A stretch of DNA of 35,981 bases from Nitrospirota bacterium (lineage in GTDB: Bacteria; Nitrospirota; Leptospirillia; Leptospirillales; Leptospirillaceae): the NCBI GenBank assembly GCA_021840555.1, contig JAKBXW010000009.1, positions 1 to 35,981 of the forward strand, in the 5' to 3' direction. Below, in pieces: positions 19,601 through 31,391 of the stretch. The notes beneath the pieces were generated by a model. It had not been told where the DNA came from. It did not search any database and saw only the letters and a list, made by a program, of their open reading frames with translations. Position 1 is the first letter of the stretch, and every line of letters begins with the position of its first letter. A program made the translations under genes and the position numbers.

Positions 19601-20587
19601 TTAAGGCTTGACCGCGATCCCCTTCTCCTTGTGACGGGTCAGGGCCGCGTTGAGGGCGTCCAGGAATTTCTGGGGTTCGAACTTCACCACATACTCGTCA
19701 ATCCCCAGCTCCCGGCCTTTCCTCATGTTCTCCGTCCCGCTCATGGAGGAGTTCATGATGACGGGAATACTCTTCCATTCAGGGTTTTCCTTGATCTTCT
19801 TCACGAAAGAGTACCCGTCCATAACAGGCATCTCGACGTCGGAGATGACGGCCGCGAGCTCCTCCGGATTTTTCTTCCAGATCTGCGCCATCATTGTCAG
19901 TCCCTCTTCCCCGTTCCGAGCCAGCGCGACCTTGTAGCCATCCTTGTCCAGTGCCTTGGACAGCATGTTGCGGGCGACCCCGCTGTCGTCGACTACGAGA
20001 ACGGTCTTTCCTGTGGACTCCGCCTTCGGCAGGGACTCAATGTCGTGCACCTGGCGCGAATAAAGCCCCATCTCCTCGACGATGCTTTCGAAGTCAAGGA
20101 TCAGGAGGACACGCCCCGCGTCCGGTCCCTCCGTGAGCTTGATTGTCCCGACGACACTCGAATCCTTGTGGGTGGCGGAAGAGGGAAGGTTGATCGGGAC
20201 AATGCTTTTCCAGGACACCCGCCGGATCTGAACGCTCTGATGGACGAGGAAGCCGAGACGGATATTTGAAAACTCCGTCACGATCACCTGGGAGGAGGTG
20301 ATGCCGGGAGGCTCCGTCACACGCATCCACCGGGCGAGATTGATGATGGGAATGACGATGCCCCGAAGATTGATGACCCCGTCCTGGAAGGGGTTGGCGT
20401 TTGGCACCGGGGTGATTTCCGGGAGTTTGATGATCTCGATCACCTTGGCCACGTTGACCCCGTAAATCCCCTCCATGACCTTATCGGGATTGTTTTTGTC
20501 CACCTGAAAGATGCGAAAGTCCACAAGCTCCATCTGGTTGGTCCCGACCTGGAGAACGAGATTCTCGATATCTGTTTTACCGCTCAT
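19601..20587 (-). CDS. cheV: Chemotaxis protein CheV (CheW domain plus receiver)
   Basis: Coupling protein that links chemoreceptors to CheA and is tuned by phosphorylation. It has 328 residues. The CheW-like domain covers about 15-185, with VDFRIF, the receptor-binding INLRGIVIPIINLARW and a later LGFLVHQSVQIRRVSW. The receiver domain covers about 194-318, with Asp200/Asp201 in VVDDSG, phospho-acceptor Asp250 in ISDVEMPVMDGYS, Ser280 in the NSSMSG loop and Lys302 in VVKFEP. It is the last gene of a four-gene operon with two chemoreceptors and an ODP-like protein, 54 bases behind the short receptor. CAGGAACG lies ahead of the ATG. Confidence 0.94.
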   Translation of the reverse strand: MSGKTDIENLVLQVGTNQMELVDFRIFQVDKNNPDKVMEGIYGVNVAKVIEIIKLPEITPVPNANPFQDGVINLRGIVIPIINLARWMRVTEPPGITSSQVIVTEFSNIRLGFLVHQSVQIRRVSWKSIVPINLPSSATHKDSSVVGTIKLTEGPDAGRVLLILDFESIVEEMGLYSRQVHDIESLPKAESTGKTVLVVDDSGVARNMLSKALDKDGYKVALARNGEEGLTMMAQIWKKNPEELAAVISDVEMPVMDGYSFVKKIKENPEWKSIPVIMNSSMSGTENMRKGRELGIDEYVVKFEPQKFLDALNAALTRHKEKGIAVKP

Positions 20588-20641
20588 CGTTCCTGACTCC
20601 TGACAAGGTGTTTTTATCTTCGGGACTCCGTCCCGCGGATC

Positions 20642-21283
20642 CTAGGCTTTCGAGAAGACCCCCCGGATCAGCTGGCTCATCCGGTCGGACCGGCCGACAA
20701 CGATCCCCAGAAACTTTTTGAGAAGATTTCCGGAGGCGACGTCCTTCATGTGGGCCACGCTCTGCTCGATCTTCTCCGAGAAATCCTTCATCTCTCCGAT
20801 CCGGCTCTGCACATCCTCGATGCTCTCCCGCATGGCCCCGAGTTCGGCGCCGATCGACTCCACCGTCTTGGAAATTTCCTCGACCGACTTTCGCGTCCTG
20901 TCGGAGAGCTTCTTGATCTCCTCCGCCACCACGGCGAACCCACGTCCGGCCTCCTTGGCGTGGGCGGCCTCGATCGCGGCGTTGATCGACAGAAGGTTCA
21001 CCTGGGTCGAGATCTCCCGAATCTCGAGCCCGATCGCCGAAATCCGTTCGAGAACCGTCTGGAAGCGCTCGAGGTTCGCGATCGACTCCTGCCCCTTCCG
21101 GATCATGGTCGACACGTCGATCCGTTCCATCCGCGTCCGGAGGATGTCGGTCATGGAGCCGATGTCCCGGTCGTGCATCCGGTTGATTTCCTCGAGCTGC
21201 ACGATATAGTTTCGTACAAAAACCAGATCCGCCTGAAGCTCGCCCAGGGCCAGACGCTCCCTTTCGCACAGTCTCTCACCCAT
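20642..21283 (-). CDS. Short cytoplasmic methyl-accepting chemotaxis protein
   Basis: Chemoreceptor of only 213 residues, made almost entirely of signalling helices and without membrane segments or a sensor domain. The hairpin tip that binds CheA and CheW is at about residues 86-130, with [22 protein letters not shown] followed by [19 protein letters not shown]. This resembles soluble receptors such as Tm14 of Thermotoga, which need a partner protein for sensing. About 65 residues of N-terminal helix precede the hairpin. The ATG at 21283 has AAAGGGAGGGA at normal spacing; a TTG ten codons upstream lacks one. The gene immediately upstream in the operon codes for an ODP-like protein, the natural candidate for the sensing partner. 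Confidence 0.88.
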
Positions 21284-21333
21284 GCTGTCCCTCCCTTTCG
21301 GTCCTTCCGTCAACGGTCTGTCTCACCTGGATC

Positions 21334-22083
21334 TCAGGTGAAGATGTTCGCGTCGAAGCCGACGCGCGCCTTTCCGATCCAGTCCAGGAACTTCCGGGCT
21401 TCCGGCTCCCGGAAGATGGATCCGTGCTGGGGACAGATCATCCGGATCGGAAGGTTCCGGATCTTCGACAGCCAGTACTCGATCGCCCGCGAGGTCGCCA
21501 CGTACCGCACATGGAATCCCTCCATGTGGCGGACATGGTCCTCGAAGTTCTCCACATAGAGGGGCGTCTCCCCCTTGGGATAGATCGCGGCGCCCAGATC
21601 CCCCGTGAAGAGGATGCCCGAGGCGTGGTCGAAGACATGGAAATTCCCCGGGGAATGGAGAAAATGGGCCGGGATGAAATCCAGGCGGTTGCCGGAAGGG
21701 AGGGAAAGCGTCCCTCCCCCGTCCGGGATCCCCTCGATCCTGTCCAGGGCCGTCACCCCGTAGTGCAGGAGAAACCGGATCCAGAGCGCGGAGACGTGAA
21801 CCCGGGCCGGGGTCATGTCCATCCAGGAGGCGAGCCCCCCTCCCACGTCAGGATCCTGGTGGCAGAGGAAGATGTGGTCGACCTTTTCCGGATCCGCGAA
21901 CTCGCTCATGTTCACCACCACCCGGGAAAAGACCCCGAACCCCCCGGGGTCGAGCAGGGTCCCCCGGCCGTTGTCGACGATCAGGTACTGGTTCGTCTGC
22001 ACCCCTTCCTCGAGGCCCGTTTCGTCGCGGCCAAGCCAGACGAATTTGTGGTTGGGGGAATCAAAGACGATCTCCGATGCCAT
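21334..22083 (-). CDS. ODP-like di-iron oxygen-binding protein (metallo-beta-lactamase fold)
   Basis: Soluble protein of 249 residues related to the metallo-beta-lactamase-like domain of flavodiiron proteins but lacking the flavodoxin domain. The putative di-iron ligands are in family order: His75, Asp77 and Asp79 in CHQDPDVGG, His143 in LHSPGN, bridging Asp162 in TGDLG, and His220 in CPQHGS. The usual HxExDH motif thus reads HxDxDV, with Glu replaced by Asp and the final His by Val. Known ODP proteins bind O2 at a reduced di-iron site, and the one in Treponema denticola has been described as a chemotaxis sensor of Fe(II) and oxygen. The position between two cytoplasmic chemoreceptor genes supports the same role. 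GAGGAGG lies just before the ATG. Confidence 0.87.
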   Translation of the reverse strand: MASEIVFDSPNHKFVWLGRDETGLEEGVQTNQYLIVDNGRGTLLDPGGFGVFSRVVVNMSEFADPEKVDHIFLCHQDPDVGGGLASWMDMTPARVHVSALWIRFLLHYGVTALDRIEGIPDGGGTLSLPSGNRLDFIPAHFLHSPGNFHVFDHASGILFTGDLGAAIYPKGETPLYVENFEDHVRHMEGFHVRYVATSRAIEYWLSKIRNLPIRMICPQHGSIFREPEARKFLDWIGKARVGFDANIFT

Positions 22084-22146
22084 GGAACCTCCTCATCGAT
22101 GTTGACCGACATCCGGTCGGGATTGAATCTTCTGGGAGAAGGGGGA

Positions 22147-23331
22147 TCACTGTCCTTTCCTCACCTTTTTGAGATTCTCGTCAAGTGCGACCACCAGGGA
22201 TTCGAGTTGCTTTCTGACCTCCGACACGTTGCGGGACTGTTTTTCCGTCACGCCGACGATGCCGTTCAAGGTCTCGGACAGAATCGTCGCGCGGTCGACG
22301 ATCGAGGCGAAGACCGTCCCCACTCCCTGGGCCTTCTTCTGGCTTTCCTCGACCTTTCCCAGGGTTCCGTGGATCAGGGTCGCCGTGCGGGTCGTCTCTC
22401 CCTGGGTCTCCCGGATGGTCGTGCCGATTTCCTTCGTGGCGCGAATGGTCCGCTCCGCAAGTTTACGCACCTCGTCGGCCACCACCGCGAACCCTCTTCC
22501 CTGCTCGCCCGCCCGGGCCGCCTCGATGGCGGCATTCAGGGCCAGAAGGTTCGTCTGGCTCGCGATGTCGTCGATCACTTCGACCACCTTCCCGATCTCC
22601 TGGCTTCGGGCGTTGAGCCCGTTCACGACTTCCACGAGAGCGCGCATGGCCTCCCCCGCCTCCAGAACCTGGGAGAGCAGGGCTTCGAGGGTCTGGCGTC
22701 CGCCCTCCCCCTCCGAGCGGGTTTTCTGGGATTCGGCCGCCACCTTTCCGGTCGCCACCACGATCTCCCGGATGCCGGAATCGAGCTCCCCGACGGCCCG
22801 GGAGAGGACCTGGGATGAGCGGCTCTGGGACTCTGCCGATTGTTCGAGGAGCCGGTCGGCGGTCACGTCCCGAAAAACGGTCATGTACCCCAGAGCCTTT
22901 CCGGAAACGGGATCGGCCACCACCTCCGTCGTCGAGAGAAGGGAAATCCCTCCGATCTCCATCACCTGATTTTTCCGGATCTCTCCGGGCCGAAGCCCCT
23001 CGAGAATCTTCCGGATCCGGTCCGGATCCTTGTGGAACCGGTGGATGGAGCCATCCATCACCTCGGAGGCGGAGACGCCGAAGGAGCGCTTCATCTCCGC
23101 CTCCATGGCGGAGACGATCTTCTTCATGGCCTGGTTCATGTAAAGGATCCGGTTCCCCGCGCGCCCGCTTCCCGTCTCGGGCGACGCGATCGCGATCCCG
23201 AGATCGGGAACAGCGTCCAGGATCTTCCGGAGAACACGGGAATCCTCGAGAAAATCCTCCCCGGATCTCTCTCTTAAGCCGACCTGCTCCCGTCCTTCCT
23301 CACGACGATTGCCACCGCCGAACAAGCTCAT
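22147..23331 (-). CDS. Cytoplasmic PAS-domain methyl-accepting chemotaxis protein
   Basis: Chemoreceptor of 394 residues without membrane helices. A PAS-type sensor covers about residues 33-160, with [12 protein letters not shown] and a segment [16 protein letters not shown] that carries His97 and His100. This subtype is common in soluble and Aer-like receptors; its ligand (heme, flavin or none) cannot be told from sequence. The signalling domain covers about 170-394 with the conserved tip [20 protein letters not shown], then [20 protein letters not shown]. The ATG at 23331 is preceded by GGGGAGGGG; an in-frame upstream extension of ten codons is not supported. It is the first gene of the chemotaxis operon, about 60 bases downstream of a sigma28-like promoter. 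Confidence 0.91.
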
Positions 23332-23390
23332 GAAACCCCTCCCCGAAATCTGTCCCCTCACAGGAGCATTAAACGCTCACCATGATACTC

Positions 23391-23417
23391 TTATCGGGCC
23401 TTTTTTCAAAAGCTGAA
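23391..23417 (-). promoter_or_regulatory. Sigma28 (FliA)-like flagellar promoter of the chemotaxis operon
   Basis: On the - strand TTCAGCTT (23417-23410) and CCCGATAA (23398-23391) are separated by 11 bases. The consensus is TAAAGTTT-N11-GCCGATAA. The -10 matches at seven of eight positions and the -35 at five of eight. The site is 60 bases upstream of the first chemotaxis gene, as expected for co-regulation with late flagellar genes. Confidence 0.6.
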
Positions 23418-28323: not shown

Positions 28324-28599
28324 CTACTCCTCGGAGTCTTCGTCCCGTGAATTCTTGCCGTGCCCCGGCCTCTCCAGTTCTCGTTTGAAATACCAGGAAA
28401 TTCCGAGATAGAGAAAAACGGGAACAAGAACTCCCAGCAAAAAGAAAAGATAGGCAAACCAAGGGAGTCCAAGCGTTACATGAACATATCGGGGAAGATA
28501 GGCCCAGGAATTTCCTGGAATTCCAACAATCCCCAATCCCCATATTGCCCCCAGAAGAAGGGGTTTGTAAAGTCGGGTCATAAGATGGCGTGCTCTCAA
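28324..28599 (-). CDS. Small two-helix membrane protein of the respiratory cluster
   Basis: I do not recognise this protein. It has up to 91 residues, with hydrophobic segments at about 14-33 and 46-67 and a charged tail (FKRELERPGHGKNSRDEDSEE). Two starts are possible: TTG at 28599, overlapping the previous stop (TTGA), or ATG at 28581, which has only a weak GAGAG ahead. It lies between a subunit I-like gene and ccoG, so a small structural subunit or assembly helper is plausible, but that is inference from position. Confidence 0.65.
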   Translation of the reverse strand: MRARHLMTRLYKPLLLGAIWGLGIVGIPGNSWAYLPRYVHVTLGLPWFAYLFFLLGVLVPVFLYLGISWYFKRELERPGHGKNSRDEDSEE

Positions 28600-29198
28600 T
28601 GATTTTGTGACTGGCGAAAGGTTCCGGTCGATGGCGACATGGCTGGCAGGATAGGGGCTGAGGCCTCTTCACGCTCGCTCACCGGAAGTTCCCGCCGTCC
28701 CTTGGCTACCTGGACCGTCATATAGATATTGTAGGCAAAGATGATGTTGGCCAGAAGCACAAAAAGGCCGAAAATGCCGACCATTTCCATGTAGGGGGCC
28801 TCGACGGGCTTGATATCGGCCACATTTCCGTGAAGGAGAATCATCCCGCCCTTGTACCCGGCGATGCAGAAGGCAAGGACCATCCCGACAAGGCTGATGT
28901 TGTGCATCCAGAAATGGATTTTGAGAAGACGATAGCTGTAGAGGGGGCCGCTGAAAATTTTGGGGACAATATAATACATCGATCCAAAGATAGCCATCTC
29001 GACCCATCCCAGAAGATTGATGTGGGTGTGACCGAGCACAATCAGGTCAGAAGGTCCGCCCGCCCCGGCCTGGACAAAATTGCGGAAAGTCTCCACACCG
29101 CCCATCACCGCTCCCCAGGAAAAGCCGATAATCGCGTAAAGGAGACAGGCATAGTAGAACTTCATGATGTAGTCCTTGATTTTTTCATCCCTCGTCAT
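28596..29198 (-). CDS. Half-length heme-copper oxidase subunit I-like protein (copy 2)
   Basis: Membrane protein of 200 residues with four helices (about 13-36, 52-80, 92-115, 138-163). Helix 2 contains GHTHINLLGW followed by MYYIVP, like the second helix of cbb3 and NO-reductase catalytic subunits, where the His ligates low-spin heme b. His57, His59, His95 and His99 could serve as ligands. Full-length CcoN or NorB has about 12 helices; the later ones, which carry the CuB ligands and the second heme ligand, are absent. The protein is therefore not a normal catalytic subunit. The start is ATG at 29198 with AAGGGGAAGGGG upstream, better than the ATG at 29219. It is related to the 191-residue protein two genes upstream. 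Confidence 0.75.
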   Translation of the reverse strand: MTRDEKIKDYIMKFYYACLLYAIIGFSWGAVMGGVETFRNFVQAGAGGPSDLIVLGHTHINLLGWVEMAIFGSMYYIVPKIFSGPLYSYRLLKIHFWMHNISLVGMVLAFCIAGYKGGMILLHGNVADIKPVEAPYMEMVGIFGLFVLLANIIFAYNIYMTVQVAKGRRELPVSEREEASAPILPAMSPSTGTFRQSQNH

Positions 29199-29219
29199 GA
29201 CAGACCCCTTCCCCTTCAT

Positions 29220-30350
29220 TCATCGTTTCGCATCCATGCAAAGCCGGAATCCAAAAAAGTCCGAGGCATAAAAAGGCCAGGTCGGATTTCTGGCGCTGAC
29301 CCGGGCGCTGTACTGGTCGCTTTTCCAGGACCCCCCCCTCAAAACATAGTAGGACTTTCCCTTCACAGGATGAAGGGCTCCCGTCGCATCGACCCGGTAT
29401 GAATAGAACCGGGCCTTGTTGGCCGTGTTTCCCGGATAGGGACGGTACTTCGAGCTGGTCCATTCGAAGACATTTCCGGCCATGTCGAGAACGCCATAGG
29501 GACTGGCCCCCATGGGATAACGGTTCACGGGGGAGGTATCTCCCACCGTGTAGTTCGCATTGGCTCTTCTTGGGTCCCAGGTGTCTCCCCACGGCCACAT
29601 CCGCTTGTCCACACCGCGGGCGGCTTTTTCCCACTCTTCCTCCGTACACAGCCTTGCTCTTCGGAAGCGCGCATAGTCACGGGCGTTCTCCATGGAAACA
29701 AATGTCACAGGATAATTGCCTCTCCCAGGGGGATACGTGCCGTTCTTCCAATTGGCGGGAGGAATGTAGTGGGCTTTGTCGACAAACTCCTTGTACTCCC
29801 TGTTTGTCACCAGAGTCTTTTCGATCAGATACGGGGGAAGGAACACCTTATGAACCGGTTTTTCGTCAAAATTCGCGAAATTGTCATCGGATCCCATCCA
29901 GAAGGGACCTGCGGGAATCAGGACGAATCCCTTCGGAATTTTGTATCCGGAAGCATCGACCTGGATCTGGGGTGTGGGAGCGAGATTTTTTCCTTCCTGA
30001 AGGTTTTTCGAGGCCGCGCTGAGTTTGGAAGAGTTCGTTCCTGGAAGGGCCTCCGTCAGGACTCCCCCCATCGGGCGAAATTCTCCGGGAGCCGCCCCAT
30101 GCTTTCGGACACCTGCCGTTGAAAGGCGTACAATTCTGTTTGACGCCAGTCCCACGACGTGAACCGCCCCCGCTATGAGTATGAGCAGAACGAAGGTGAT
30201 CGTAATCGCCTTCCAGGGAAGTTGCCACGGCGACATTTCCGCCGGAGCCAGATCATCGTCGTCCGGGCTGATGTGAAGAGGTGTTTCCTTTTGAAGAGTT
30301 TCAGGGTGAATGTTTTTTTCCTCGAATTCATTTTTCTTTTTCTCTTCCAT
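29220..30350 (-). CDS. Membrane-anchored SUMF1 (formylglycine-generating enzyme-like) domain protein
   Basis: Protein of 376 residues with a charged N-terminal tail, one membrane helix at about residues 47-68, a linker rich in Ser, Ala and Gly, and a SUMF1 domain from about 140 to the end. Family segments are FVLIPAGPFWMGSDD, VTNREYKEF, RLCTEEEWEKAARG, MWPWGDTWD, SPYGVLDMAGNVFEWTSS and LRGGSW. The copper-binding active-site cysteines of true formylglycine-generating enzymes are missing: where they would lie the sequence reads GGSWKSDQYSARV. A structural or binding role is more likely than catalysis. NirV, linked to nitrite reductases, is another SUMF1 protein in a respiratory operon. The ATG at 30350 is chosen; a TTG at 30359 overlapping the upstream stop is the alternative. 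Confidence 0.85.
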   Translation of the reverse strand: MEEKKKNEFEEKNIHPETLQKETPLHISPDDDDLAPAEMSPWQLPWKAITITFVLLILIAGAVHVVGLASNRIVRLSTAGVRKHGAAPGEFRPMGGVLTEALPGTNSSKLSAASKNLQEGKNLAPTPQIQVDASGYKIPKGFVLIPAGPFWMGSDDNFANFDEKPVHKVFLPPYLIEKTLVTNREYKEFVDKAHYIPPANWKNGTYPPGRGNYPVTFVSMENARDYARFRRARLCTEEEWEKAARGVDKRMWPWGDTWDPRRANANYTVGDTSPVNRYPMGASPYGVLDMAGNVFEWTSSKYRPYPGNTANKARFYSYRVDATGALHPVKGKSYYVLRGGSWKSDQYSARVSARNPTWPFYASDFFGFRLCMDAKR

Positions 30351-30355
30351 TCGGC

Positions 30356-30931
30356 TCAAACCCTTTCTTTCGCCTGCCGTGTTACCGGATTCAAAACTTT
30401 TTTCGGGGCCCGGAACCAGACTGTAGCAAAAACATTGAAGACAAAGGTCCAGTGGCCGATTCCCATCAGAAGAGCCGCCAGAACGAATCCGATCCTGTGA
30501 TAGGGTTGATAAACGGCGCGCGCCAGAGGATAGACGATTCCCTGGTCGAGCATCCTGTTCCCCTCGAGGATGCCGAATGTCAAAAGAACACTATAGAACG
30601 CCAGAACCCCAGATACCATGAAAACGAAGCTAAGTTCCCCCAGCATTTGACTCCAGATCTGTCTTCCGGATAGTCGCGGGAGAAGATAGTAAACCATGGC
30701 CATGACAACCGAAACGACTCCACCGATCAGGTTGATATGGGCATGGGCCAGTGGATCCACCAAATGCCCGGCCTGTCCGGTCATATGGATCCAGTGGCGG
30801 ATTCTGGGAGTCGACTGAAGAAAACCCTGGAGCGTTCCGACAAAAAGGCAAAAAACACCGAAGAGAATAAAGCGAAGTCCCAGTCGATCTGCCGGGCTGT
30901 CTATTTTTTCTGGCTCTCTGGCCTGGTTCAT
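30356..30931 (-). CDS. Half-length heme-copper oxidase subunit I-like protein (copy 1)
   Basis: Membrane protein of 191 residues with four helices (about 20-39, 58-87, 97-122, 146-173). Helix 2 reads LAHAHINLIGG and ends MVYYLLP, like the low-spin-heme helix of cbb3 and NO-reductase subunit I. His63 and His65 are candidate ligands. It shares layout and the HxHINLxG motif with the 200-residue protein at 28596-29198, so the two look like diverged paralogues rather than halves of one broken gene. Residues for the heme-copper centre are absent. The ATG at 30931 has AAGAGGGA upstream; an open frame reaching 31039 would overlap the previous gene and is not supported. Confidence 0.75.
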   Translation of the reverse strand: MNQAREPEKIDSPADRLGLRFILFGVFCLFVGTLQGFLQSTPRIRHWIHMTGQAGHLVDPLAHAHINLIGGVVSVVMAMVYYLLPRLSGRQIWSQMLGELSFVFMVSGVLAFYSVLLTFGILEGNRMLDQGIVYPLARAVYQPYHRIGFVLAALLMGIGHWTFVFNVFATVWFRAPKKVLNPVTRQAKERV

Positions 30932-30950
30932 GATGTCCCTCTTTTCAAAT

Positions 30951-31391
30951 TCAGGAAACCCTTTCAGGGCCCCTCGATTTGGGCCGGCCTTCTCCGGTCT
31001 TTCCAGACGAACGTTTTCTTTTGATGGTCTCTCCGACATATCCTCCCAGGAAGGAAACCTCCGGAACAGTTATGAAGAAAATCATCATGAATGGGGCAAC
31101 GGGAATTCCGACTGTCTGCCCTGTGGGATGATAGACCTCATAAAGGTAGGAGAAGAGAAGATATCCCATCGGCGGCACAGGAGCAAGCAATTTACCAAAT
31201 GGGCCGATGATATAACCGGTTACCAGGGAGACTGCGAGGGGAGCCAGCAGATAAGAGAAGAGAATTCCGGTTCCGAAGATATGGTGGAACGCGCCATTCG
31301 TCAATCCAAATGCCTTGTCAGCCAACCAGAAAAGCAGGAAACCTATCGCTATTCCGGCGAGGGCATTGACGCGGTTCAATTTCTTTTTCAA
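30951..31391 (-). CDS. Membrane protein of the respiratory cluster, unknown family
   Basis: I do not recognise this 146-residue protein. Hydrophobic segments lie at about 8-28, 38-60, 70-86 and 94-115, followed by a basic tail (RKRSSGKTGEGRPKSRG). A segment YIIGPFGKL occurs near residue 60; the small protein at 32113-32319 has the similar YIIGPFKKL. The start is a TTG at 31391 with AAAGGGG at normal spacing. It ends 19 bases before the subunit I-like gene. Position suggests a membrane subunit or assembly factor. Confidence 0.7.
   Translation of the reverse strand: MKKKLNRVNALAGIAIGFLLFWLADKAFGLTNGAFHHIFGTGILFSYLLAPLAVSLVTGYIIGPFGKLLAPVPPMGYLLFSYLYEVYHPTGQTVGIPVAPFMMIFFITVPEVSFLGGYVGETIKRKRSSGKTGEGRPKSRGPERVS

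Follow-up and report, generated by a model that had tools for sequence, protein, structure and literature searches.

The four-gene row and its promoter block

The 35,981-nucleotide stretch of DNA considered here, hereafter the window, is contig C30 of G000, a 2.12 Mb assembly (82% complete) from a Nitrospirota bacterium of the family Leptospirillaceae, a probable relative of the mine dweller Leptospirillum. Its minus strand carries a gene for ODP, an oxygen-binding di-iron protein, in a row with chemotaxis genes. The original prediction had placed there four adjacent genes, for a PAS receptor, an ODP-like protein, a sensorless receptor and CheV, and all four are present. Domains were called with Pfam profiles at the family cut-offs, and the features are as follows (aa, amino acids).

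23381..23417, minus strand: promoter block, recognised by motif conservation in genus genomes and kept before CheV in G012
22147..23331, minus strand: soluble PAS-like chemoreceptor, 394 aa (404 aa from a GTG at 23361); MCPsignal 143.8 bits, PAS_8 below cut-off
21334..22083, minus strand: ODP, oxygen-binding di-iron protein, 249 aa; PF19583, predicted ligands H75, D77, D79, H140, D162 and H220, model fold
20642..21283, minus strand: short sensorless receptor, 213 aa from ATG, without methylation motif; MCPsignal, hydropathy, tip
19601..20587, minus strand: CheV, 328 aa, with CheW and receiver (REC) domains; Pfam, receiver residues read from sequence

Gaps of 63, 50 and 54 bp (from the PAS receptor towards CheV) separate the four genes, none of the six terminator-like sites found falls inside these gaps, and the row is probably read as a single transcript. 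Both receptors had been described as soluble, and neither has the hydropathy peak typical of a membrane helix (best 19-residue means of 1.05 for the PAS receptor and 0.79 for the short one). The first is a chemoreceptor by its MCPsignal score, but its PAS assignment is weak by sequence (PF13188, 18.5 bits against a cut-off of 21.8), and its model, with a predicted local distance difference test (pLDDT) value of 62, does not allow a cofactor to be assigned to the PAS domain. This input appears to be evolutionarily labile: in G005 (L119:4899-5936) the PAS domain is replaced by a different, well-scoring PAS_3-type domain while the signalling domain is unchanged, and the receptors of G007 and G013 are without about 25 residues of the PAS region. 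G014 also has a PAS receptor in the vicinity of ODP, and contig C28 of G000 has one next to an ODP fragment.

The promoter block comprises CCCGATAA at 23391-23398, with TTCA (23414-23417) 15 nt upstream, and continues past CCCGATAA with GAGTATCATG, reaching CCCGATAAGAGTATCATG. Compared with TAAA-N15-GCCGATAA, which we take to be the sigma28 consensus, it has mismatches at three of 12 positions (fit of 7/8 in the -10 and 2/4 in the -35 element), and it is overlapped by a sigma70-like site, TTGAAA-16-TATCAT, matching at 10 of 12. In a plain sigma28 scan of the window, the block was not among the eight matches listed, six of which had fewer mismatches. As it is conserved in 10 of the 11 genus genomes aligned (G005 is the genome without it; G006, G008 and G012 were left out), the block looks like a real element. 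What stands of the predicted sigma28-like promoter is this conserved block, whose sequence could be assigned to either the sigma28 or the sigma70 type.

ODP and its receptor partner

The window ODP matches PF19583 with 239.6 bits (E 3.4e-71; cut-off 27.2), and the two solved ODP sequences match it at E 4e-80 and 1e-73. H75, D77, D79, H140, D162 and H220 are invariant in 13/13 and 29/29 aligned ODPs, and the same six residues (His, Asp, Asp, His, Asp, His) occur in both solved sequences; we presume that their role as metal ligands can be carried over from flavodiiron proteins (FDPs). The model (pLDDT 91) has a template modelling (TM) score of 0.95 to the Thermotoga maritima ODP 6qwo and of 0.89 to the Treponema denticola ODP 6qnm. 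Its scores to ten solved ODP chains are 0.85-0.95, against 0.79 for the best flavodiiron protein among the 50 matches listed. By profile and modelled fold, what had been called ODP-like is thus a true member of the ODP family. We rejected its identification as a flavodiiron reductase, because no flavodoxin domain is present in its 249 residues and because of ligand changes. According to a published title and to PDB entry 6r9n, the T. denticola ODP has a di-iron site and, on reaction with oxygen, stabilises a peroxo species.

The short receptor scores 78.9 bits with MCPsignal, over cut-off. It was compared with 40 other ODP-coupled receptors, after 12 family loci had been set apart for the motif and length counts. 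Loci were obtained for 30 of 43 receptor matches; the motif count used those and others, leaving out three without the tip pattern, and for the short receptor of G006 the start was placed manually. Lengths are 213-233 aa in the family, against 265-339 aa in the 40 others. A methylation-type motif lies at a canonical position in 30 of these 40, chiefly 89 residues before or 94 after the tip Glu, and at neither of these two places in any of the 12 family receptors; six of the 12 have a loose match elsewhere, the window's receptor not among them. The tip reads EAAHAKE in 11 of the 12 (EAARAKE in G016). The window's receptor thus has His at a position where all 40 others keep Arg, which in Escherichia coli receptors is a trimer-contact residue. 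A profile built from the 40 others gives the family short receptors 92-100 bits, and ordinary methyl-accepting chemotaxis proteins (MCPs) of the family mostly 108-148, with two at 58 and 70 (raw bits, without length correction). A search of a viral collection returned one partial receptor match.

The neighbourhood search proposed by the original prediction covered 79 named ODP loci, drawn from the best 80 of at least 562 confirmed relatives. The gene just downstream of ODP encodes a soluble receptor in 47 of them, in several phyla (40 of the 67 loci outside the family), a GGDEF-EAL protein in 12, CheV in four and another receptor form in one; two loci end with the contig and 13, of which 10 are archaeal by record titles, have none of the gene types sought. 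The expected pairing with a receptor is therefore frequent, without being the only arrangement, and the 12 GGDEF-EAL loci and the 13 with none of these genes count in part against the original prediction. ODP followed by a soluble receptor was already published: operons have been described in which ODP genes stand with receptor genes, in either of two orders, and with genes for other signalling proteins (PMC7319448). The ODP-receptor core is therefore a known arrangement. New here is the local setting, namely the shortness of the receptor with its missing methylation motifs and its tip His, the loss of CheR and CheB from the che cluster described below, the co-inheritance and the loss in a sister species.

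A CheW profile built from seven seeds found CheV in nine family loci. Within the stretch around ODP, it found CheV in none of the 67 loci outside the family, where its only hit is a CheW-CheZ protein in L120. Three of these loci carry a full CheB directly before ODP (L120:4897-5949, L136:4900-5949, and L051:8721-9770 in G033), in the row MCP-CheB-ODP-soluble receptor-MCP.

The source genome also has a second ODP (contig C28, L034:203-3032), which is 42% identical to the first and overlaps a 700-aa GGDEF-EAL protein by 8 bp. This second pair is also found in G002, G004, G006 and G011. A single genome thus seems to use ODPs for both taxis and cyclic di-GMP (c-di-GMP). Further along the same contig (L034:7293-8648) lies a PAS receptor gene; after it, at the contig end, the start of the second ODP is repeated, as either a third copy or an assembly junction.

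Within the family, ODP and the short receptor are either both present (17 of the 21 genomes) or both absent (four), which upholds the predicted partnership. Calculated by hand, such a perfect match has a chance of 1 in 5985, with no correction for kinship. The four genomes without the pair (G012, 95% complete; G017, 99%; G018, 64%; G020, 72%) belong to four different genera, and two of the absences could be assembly gaps. The two genes need not be adjacent. In G002, G004, G006 (contig C3), G008, G010 and G011, ODP is directly followed by CheV and the short receptor lies elsewhere: in G002, G004 and G010 it is roughly 28-31 kb away on the operon's own contig, and in G006, G008 and G011 it is on another contig. 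Since a second contig of G006 also carries this ODP with an adjacent short receptor, that assembly may be mixed. In trees of 20 chosen rows, the receptor tree agrees with the ODP tree at genus level and places the relocated receptor beside the operon-borne ones. Relocated and operon-borne forms are 61% identical in the receptor and 90% in ODP; by these identities, the short receptor is the faster-diverging partner. That the receptor of clade B (G002 and kin) might be an unrelated replacement is not favoured, as it forms a sister branch with a support of 89/100 despite the 61% identity. In G002 (L091:7130-11282), the relocated receptor has a CheY-like gene on one side and a gene for a 1011-aa hybrid histidine kinase on the other, which suggests a second possible input. 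The CheY-like gene has no match at E 1e-20 in four of five other genus genomes, and the match in G009 is only 38% identical.

Other genomes dissociate the row further. In genera g3 and g4, the stretch contains the genes for ODP and the short receptor, but none for a PAS receptor or CheV. Conversely, G012 has kept the promoter motif (with one mismatch) and CheV, 397 bp from motif start to CheV, without the PAS receptor, ODP and short receptor, between the same flanking genes (CcoG, HisS, Rsm22-like and LigB-like upstream; PAP2 and antiporter downstream). What remains there of the PAS receptor is a set of three collinear, frame-shifted matches (L188:6700-7061; residues 6-51, 235-256 and 262-283). 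Their chain score is 79.4 bits, and the best of 400 shuffles reached 50.7, indicating that this gene decayed. No clear ODP relic was seen between promoter and CheV. Given their presence in other members of the genus and in other genera, ODP and the short receptor were probably lost from G012 rather than primitively absent.

CheV, a shared CheA and the loss of cheR and cheB from the che cluster

The window's CheV has a CheW domain (100.9 bits) and a receiver domain (Response_reg, 68.2 bits), both over cut-off, and the receiver retains the Asp/Asp pair, the phospho-Asp, the Ser and the Lys, as read from sequence. All 21 family genomes have CheV, the four lacking ODP among them, and in other genera its gene is separate from that of ODP. 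ODP and CheV share one gene row in all 13 genus genomes with ODP (in G006, on one of the two contigs with this ODP). As CheV and the promoter stayed in G012, CheV must have work that is independent of ODP. Together with the lability of the PAS domain, this distribution speaks against the four genes forming one obligate unit.

Exactly three CheW-domain genes occur in 18 of the 21 family genomes, and by frame length these are CheA, CheW and one CheV; the exceptions are G009 and G018, with only CheV, and G011, with five. Where clusters were read, the che genes, cheA among them, are part of the flagellar operon. Thus, the receptors, of which G000 has 10 (six without membrane helices by hydropathy), must share one CheA. 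A separate soluble array with its own kinase was rejected on the same two grounds, gene count and place of CheA, and the "complete soluble sensory unit" of the original prediction was too strong a term.

The che cluster was read at 15 loci; its receptor was found in 14, and the places of cheR and cheB could be judged in 12. In G014, G016 and G017 the order is FliA-CheR-CheY-CheA-CheB-MCP(-CheW). Neither cheR nor cheB stands between these neighbours in 8/8 genus clusters (G000, G002, G003, G004, G005, G011, G012 and G013) or in G015. Weak CheB matches in clusters without cheB coincide with CheY, which shares the receiver fold, and the source genome, 82% complete, gave no CheR or CheB match at E 1e-5. 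The che-cluster receptor seems to bear traces of the same loss. We compared the EE pair of its N-arm, since the EE pair of CheR-bearing receptors fails the motif used for counting: the pair is kept in all three clusters with cheR and is DE, DD or EK in 11/11 others. The C-arm motif is present in the same three and lost in seven of the 11. With CheR and CheB gone from the cluster, CheV is the obvious adaptation protein left. Helicobacter pylori is described as having three CheV proteins without CheR and CheB (PMC11237671), and CheV-based adaptation has been suggested for it (PMC340952).

A proposed oxygen input to the shared kinase

We consider it probable, with some room for doubt, that the operon encodes a cytosolic oxygen and iron sensor feeding the one shared CheA, probably without methylation-based adaptation. 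ODP would hold two irons and bind oxygen in the cytosol, and would thereby report cytosolic oxygen with Fe(II) loading as a precondition. Its state would be passed to the short receptor, itself without an input domain, whose hairpin tip would plug into the chemoreceptor array on the cell's only CheA and change the activity of this kinase. A conserved N-terminal stretch, NYIVQLEE, could be the docking site between the two proteins. Through the PAS receptor, presumably on the same transcript, a second and evolutionarily labile cytosolic signal would reach this array. CheV, sharing their promoter, would couple the receptors to CheA, and its receiver domain would be the most likely remaining adaptation device. 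The response may be attraction or avoidance. As ODP is cytosolic, direct sensing of external Fe(II) is unlikely, and taxis of the cell toward external iron by this unit is speculation. The observation behind the original prediction is thus confirmed, and its interpretation partly supported.

Several points weigh against this proposal. Metal, oxygen and receptor binding by the window ODP are predictions from sequence and model, and by the profile scores ordinary receptors seem to resemble the other ODP-coupled receptors at least as much as the short receptor does. Four of the 11 che-cluster receptors without cheR (G001, G003, G005 and G013) retain the C-arm methylation motif, so that the erosion of methylation sites, as judged from the alignments, appears real but incomplete. 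Moreover, hybrid CheB-CheR frames of 758-1722 aa, which could methylate receptors, occur in six family genomes, two of this genus (G002 and G012) and four others (G015, G018, G019 and G020), and thus persist in three genomes (G002, G012 and G015) where the cluster cheR and cheB are gone. A CheB-type match lies outside the cluster in G003 and G011; G011 also has a CheR, which adjoins another CheA on a contig of its own that may be foreign. The source genome is only 82% complete. Finally, CheV persists without ODP, and its link to ODP may be mere co-location.

This last point leads to a narrower alternative, which denies only the part played by CheV: CheV would be in the operon by location, with no joint function with ODP. 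In its favour, CheV occurs in every family genome and is separate from ODP in other genera, the G012 locus kept promoter and CheV without the rest, and 0/67 loci outside the family have CheV around ODP. We nevertheless find it rather unlikely, as ODP and CheV share a gene row in 13/13 genus genomes with ODP, and as another adaptation protein, CheB, stands beside ODP in three loci outside the family. Alternatively, ODP might signal via the PAS receptor or CheV rather than via the short receptor. The six genomes in which ODP is directly followed by CheV would fit this route, as would the PAS receptors near ODP in G014 and on contig C28 of G000. However, those six genomes have the short receptor at another site, the ODP-receptor pair of genera g3 and g4 has no PAS receptor or CheV in its stretch, CheV occurs without ODP in four genomes, and the PAS domain was swapped in G005, which makes such a route improbable.

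We give equally little credit to ODP being a scavenger that consumes oxygen or peroxide and is merely co-transcribed with receptors that do not read it. Its closest relatives outside ODPs are indeed flavodiiron O2/NO reductases, and the 13 loci of 79 without downstream receptor, GGDEF-EAL or CheV gene would suit a stand-alone enzyme. Yet the protein has neither a flavodoxin nor a rubredoxin part for electrons, Asp77 occupies the flavodiiron Glu position, and the residue after D79 is Val where the T. maritima flavodiiron protein has His (H90) by PDB entry titles; in addition, ODP is co-inherited with a receptor that itself lacks a sensor.

The proposal of an oxygen input to the shared CheA can be extended in a way that we regard as possible, though doubtful. 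Methylation-based adaptation would have been discarded and the cell's only CheV moved into the transcript of an oxygen and iron sensor and two soluble receptors, so that the components for sensing and for adaptation are produced at a constant ratio. The sensorless receptor, with its altered tip and without canonical methylation sites, would then be a non-adapting oxygen gauge setting the working point of the array, and the CheB-ODP operons would be the methylating counterpart.

In the literature surveyed, functional tests of an ODP-receptor pair had been made in a single spirochaete, T. denticola. The family genomes offer a natural comparative set, in which the pair is adjacent, split by about 30 kb, or gone (in one case with a PAS-receptor relic), and in which the cluster CheR and CheB were lost relative to sister genera. 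Such a set makes it testable how a sensorless receptor free of canonical methylation sites uses a separate oxygen-binding protein, and whether CheV alone provides adaptation.

Elsewhere in the window (28596-31391), two short membrane proteins of 207 and 227 aa match only the C-terminal part of COX1. They flank an FGE-sulfatase-like protein, beside CcoG and cytochrome c genes, forming an odd oxidase-like cluster.

Among known systems, the closest are the T. denticola ODP (TDE2498) with its receptor TDE2496 and the T. maritima ODP (6qrq, 6qwo), with which the window shares the ODP fold, the six predicted ligands and the adjoining sensorless receptor. In contrast to both, the receptor here is without methylation motif and has His in place of the tip Arg, and a PAS receptor and CheV stand in the gene row; the ODP-coupled receptors of Treponema putidum and Treponema socranskii are about 70-80 residues longer than the window's. 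The soluble receptor Tm14, to which we take PDB entries 3g67 and 3g6b to correspond, resembles the short receptor as a cytosolic signalling hairpin. The match (E 2e-8) is weaker than those of several ordinary MCPs in the same search, and the equal length of the solved chain (213 residues) may be a coincidence. The T. denticola ODP is reported to sense oxygen and to be genetically coupled to a receptor that has neither transmembrane nor sensing modules and is able to modulate CheA (PMC7666581). H. pylori provides a parallel of another kind, having lost its dedicated adaptation enzymes and kept CheV; here, however, there is a single CheV, in another phylum and in an oxygen-sensor operon, and some relatives have a hybrid CheB-CheR. 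In the ODP and GGDEF-EAL pairs, finally, ODP would likewise be a sensor subunit distinct from the signalling protein encoded downstream, but with c-di-GMP turnover, instead of CheA activity, as the output.

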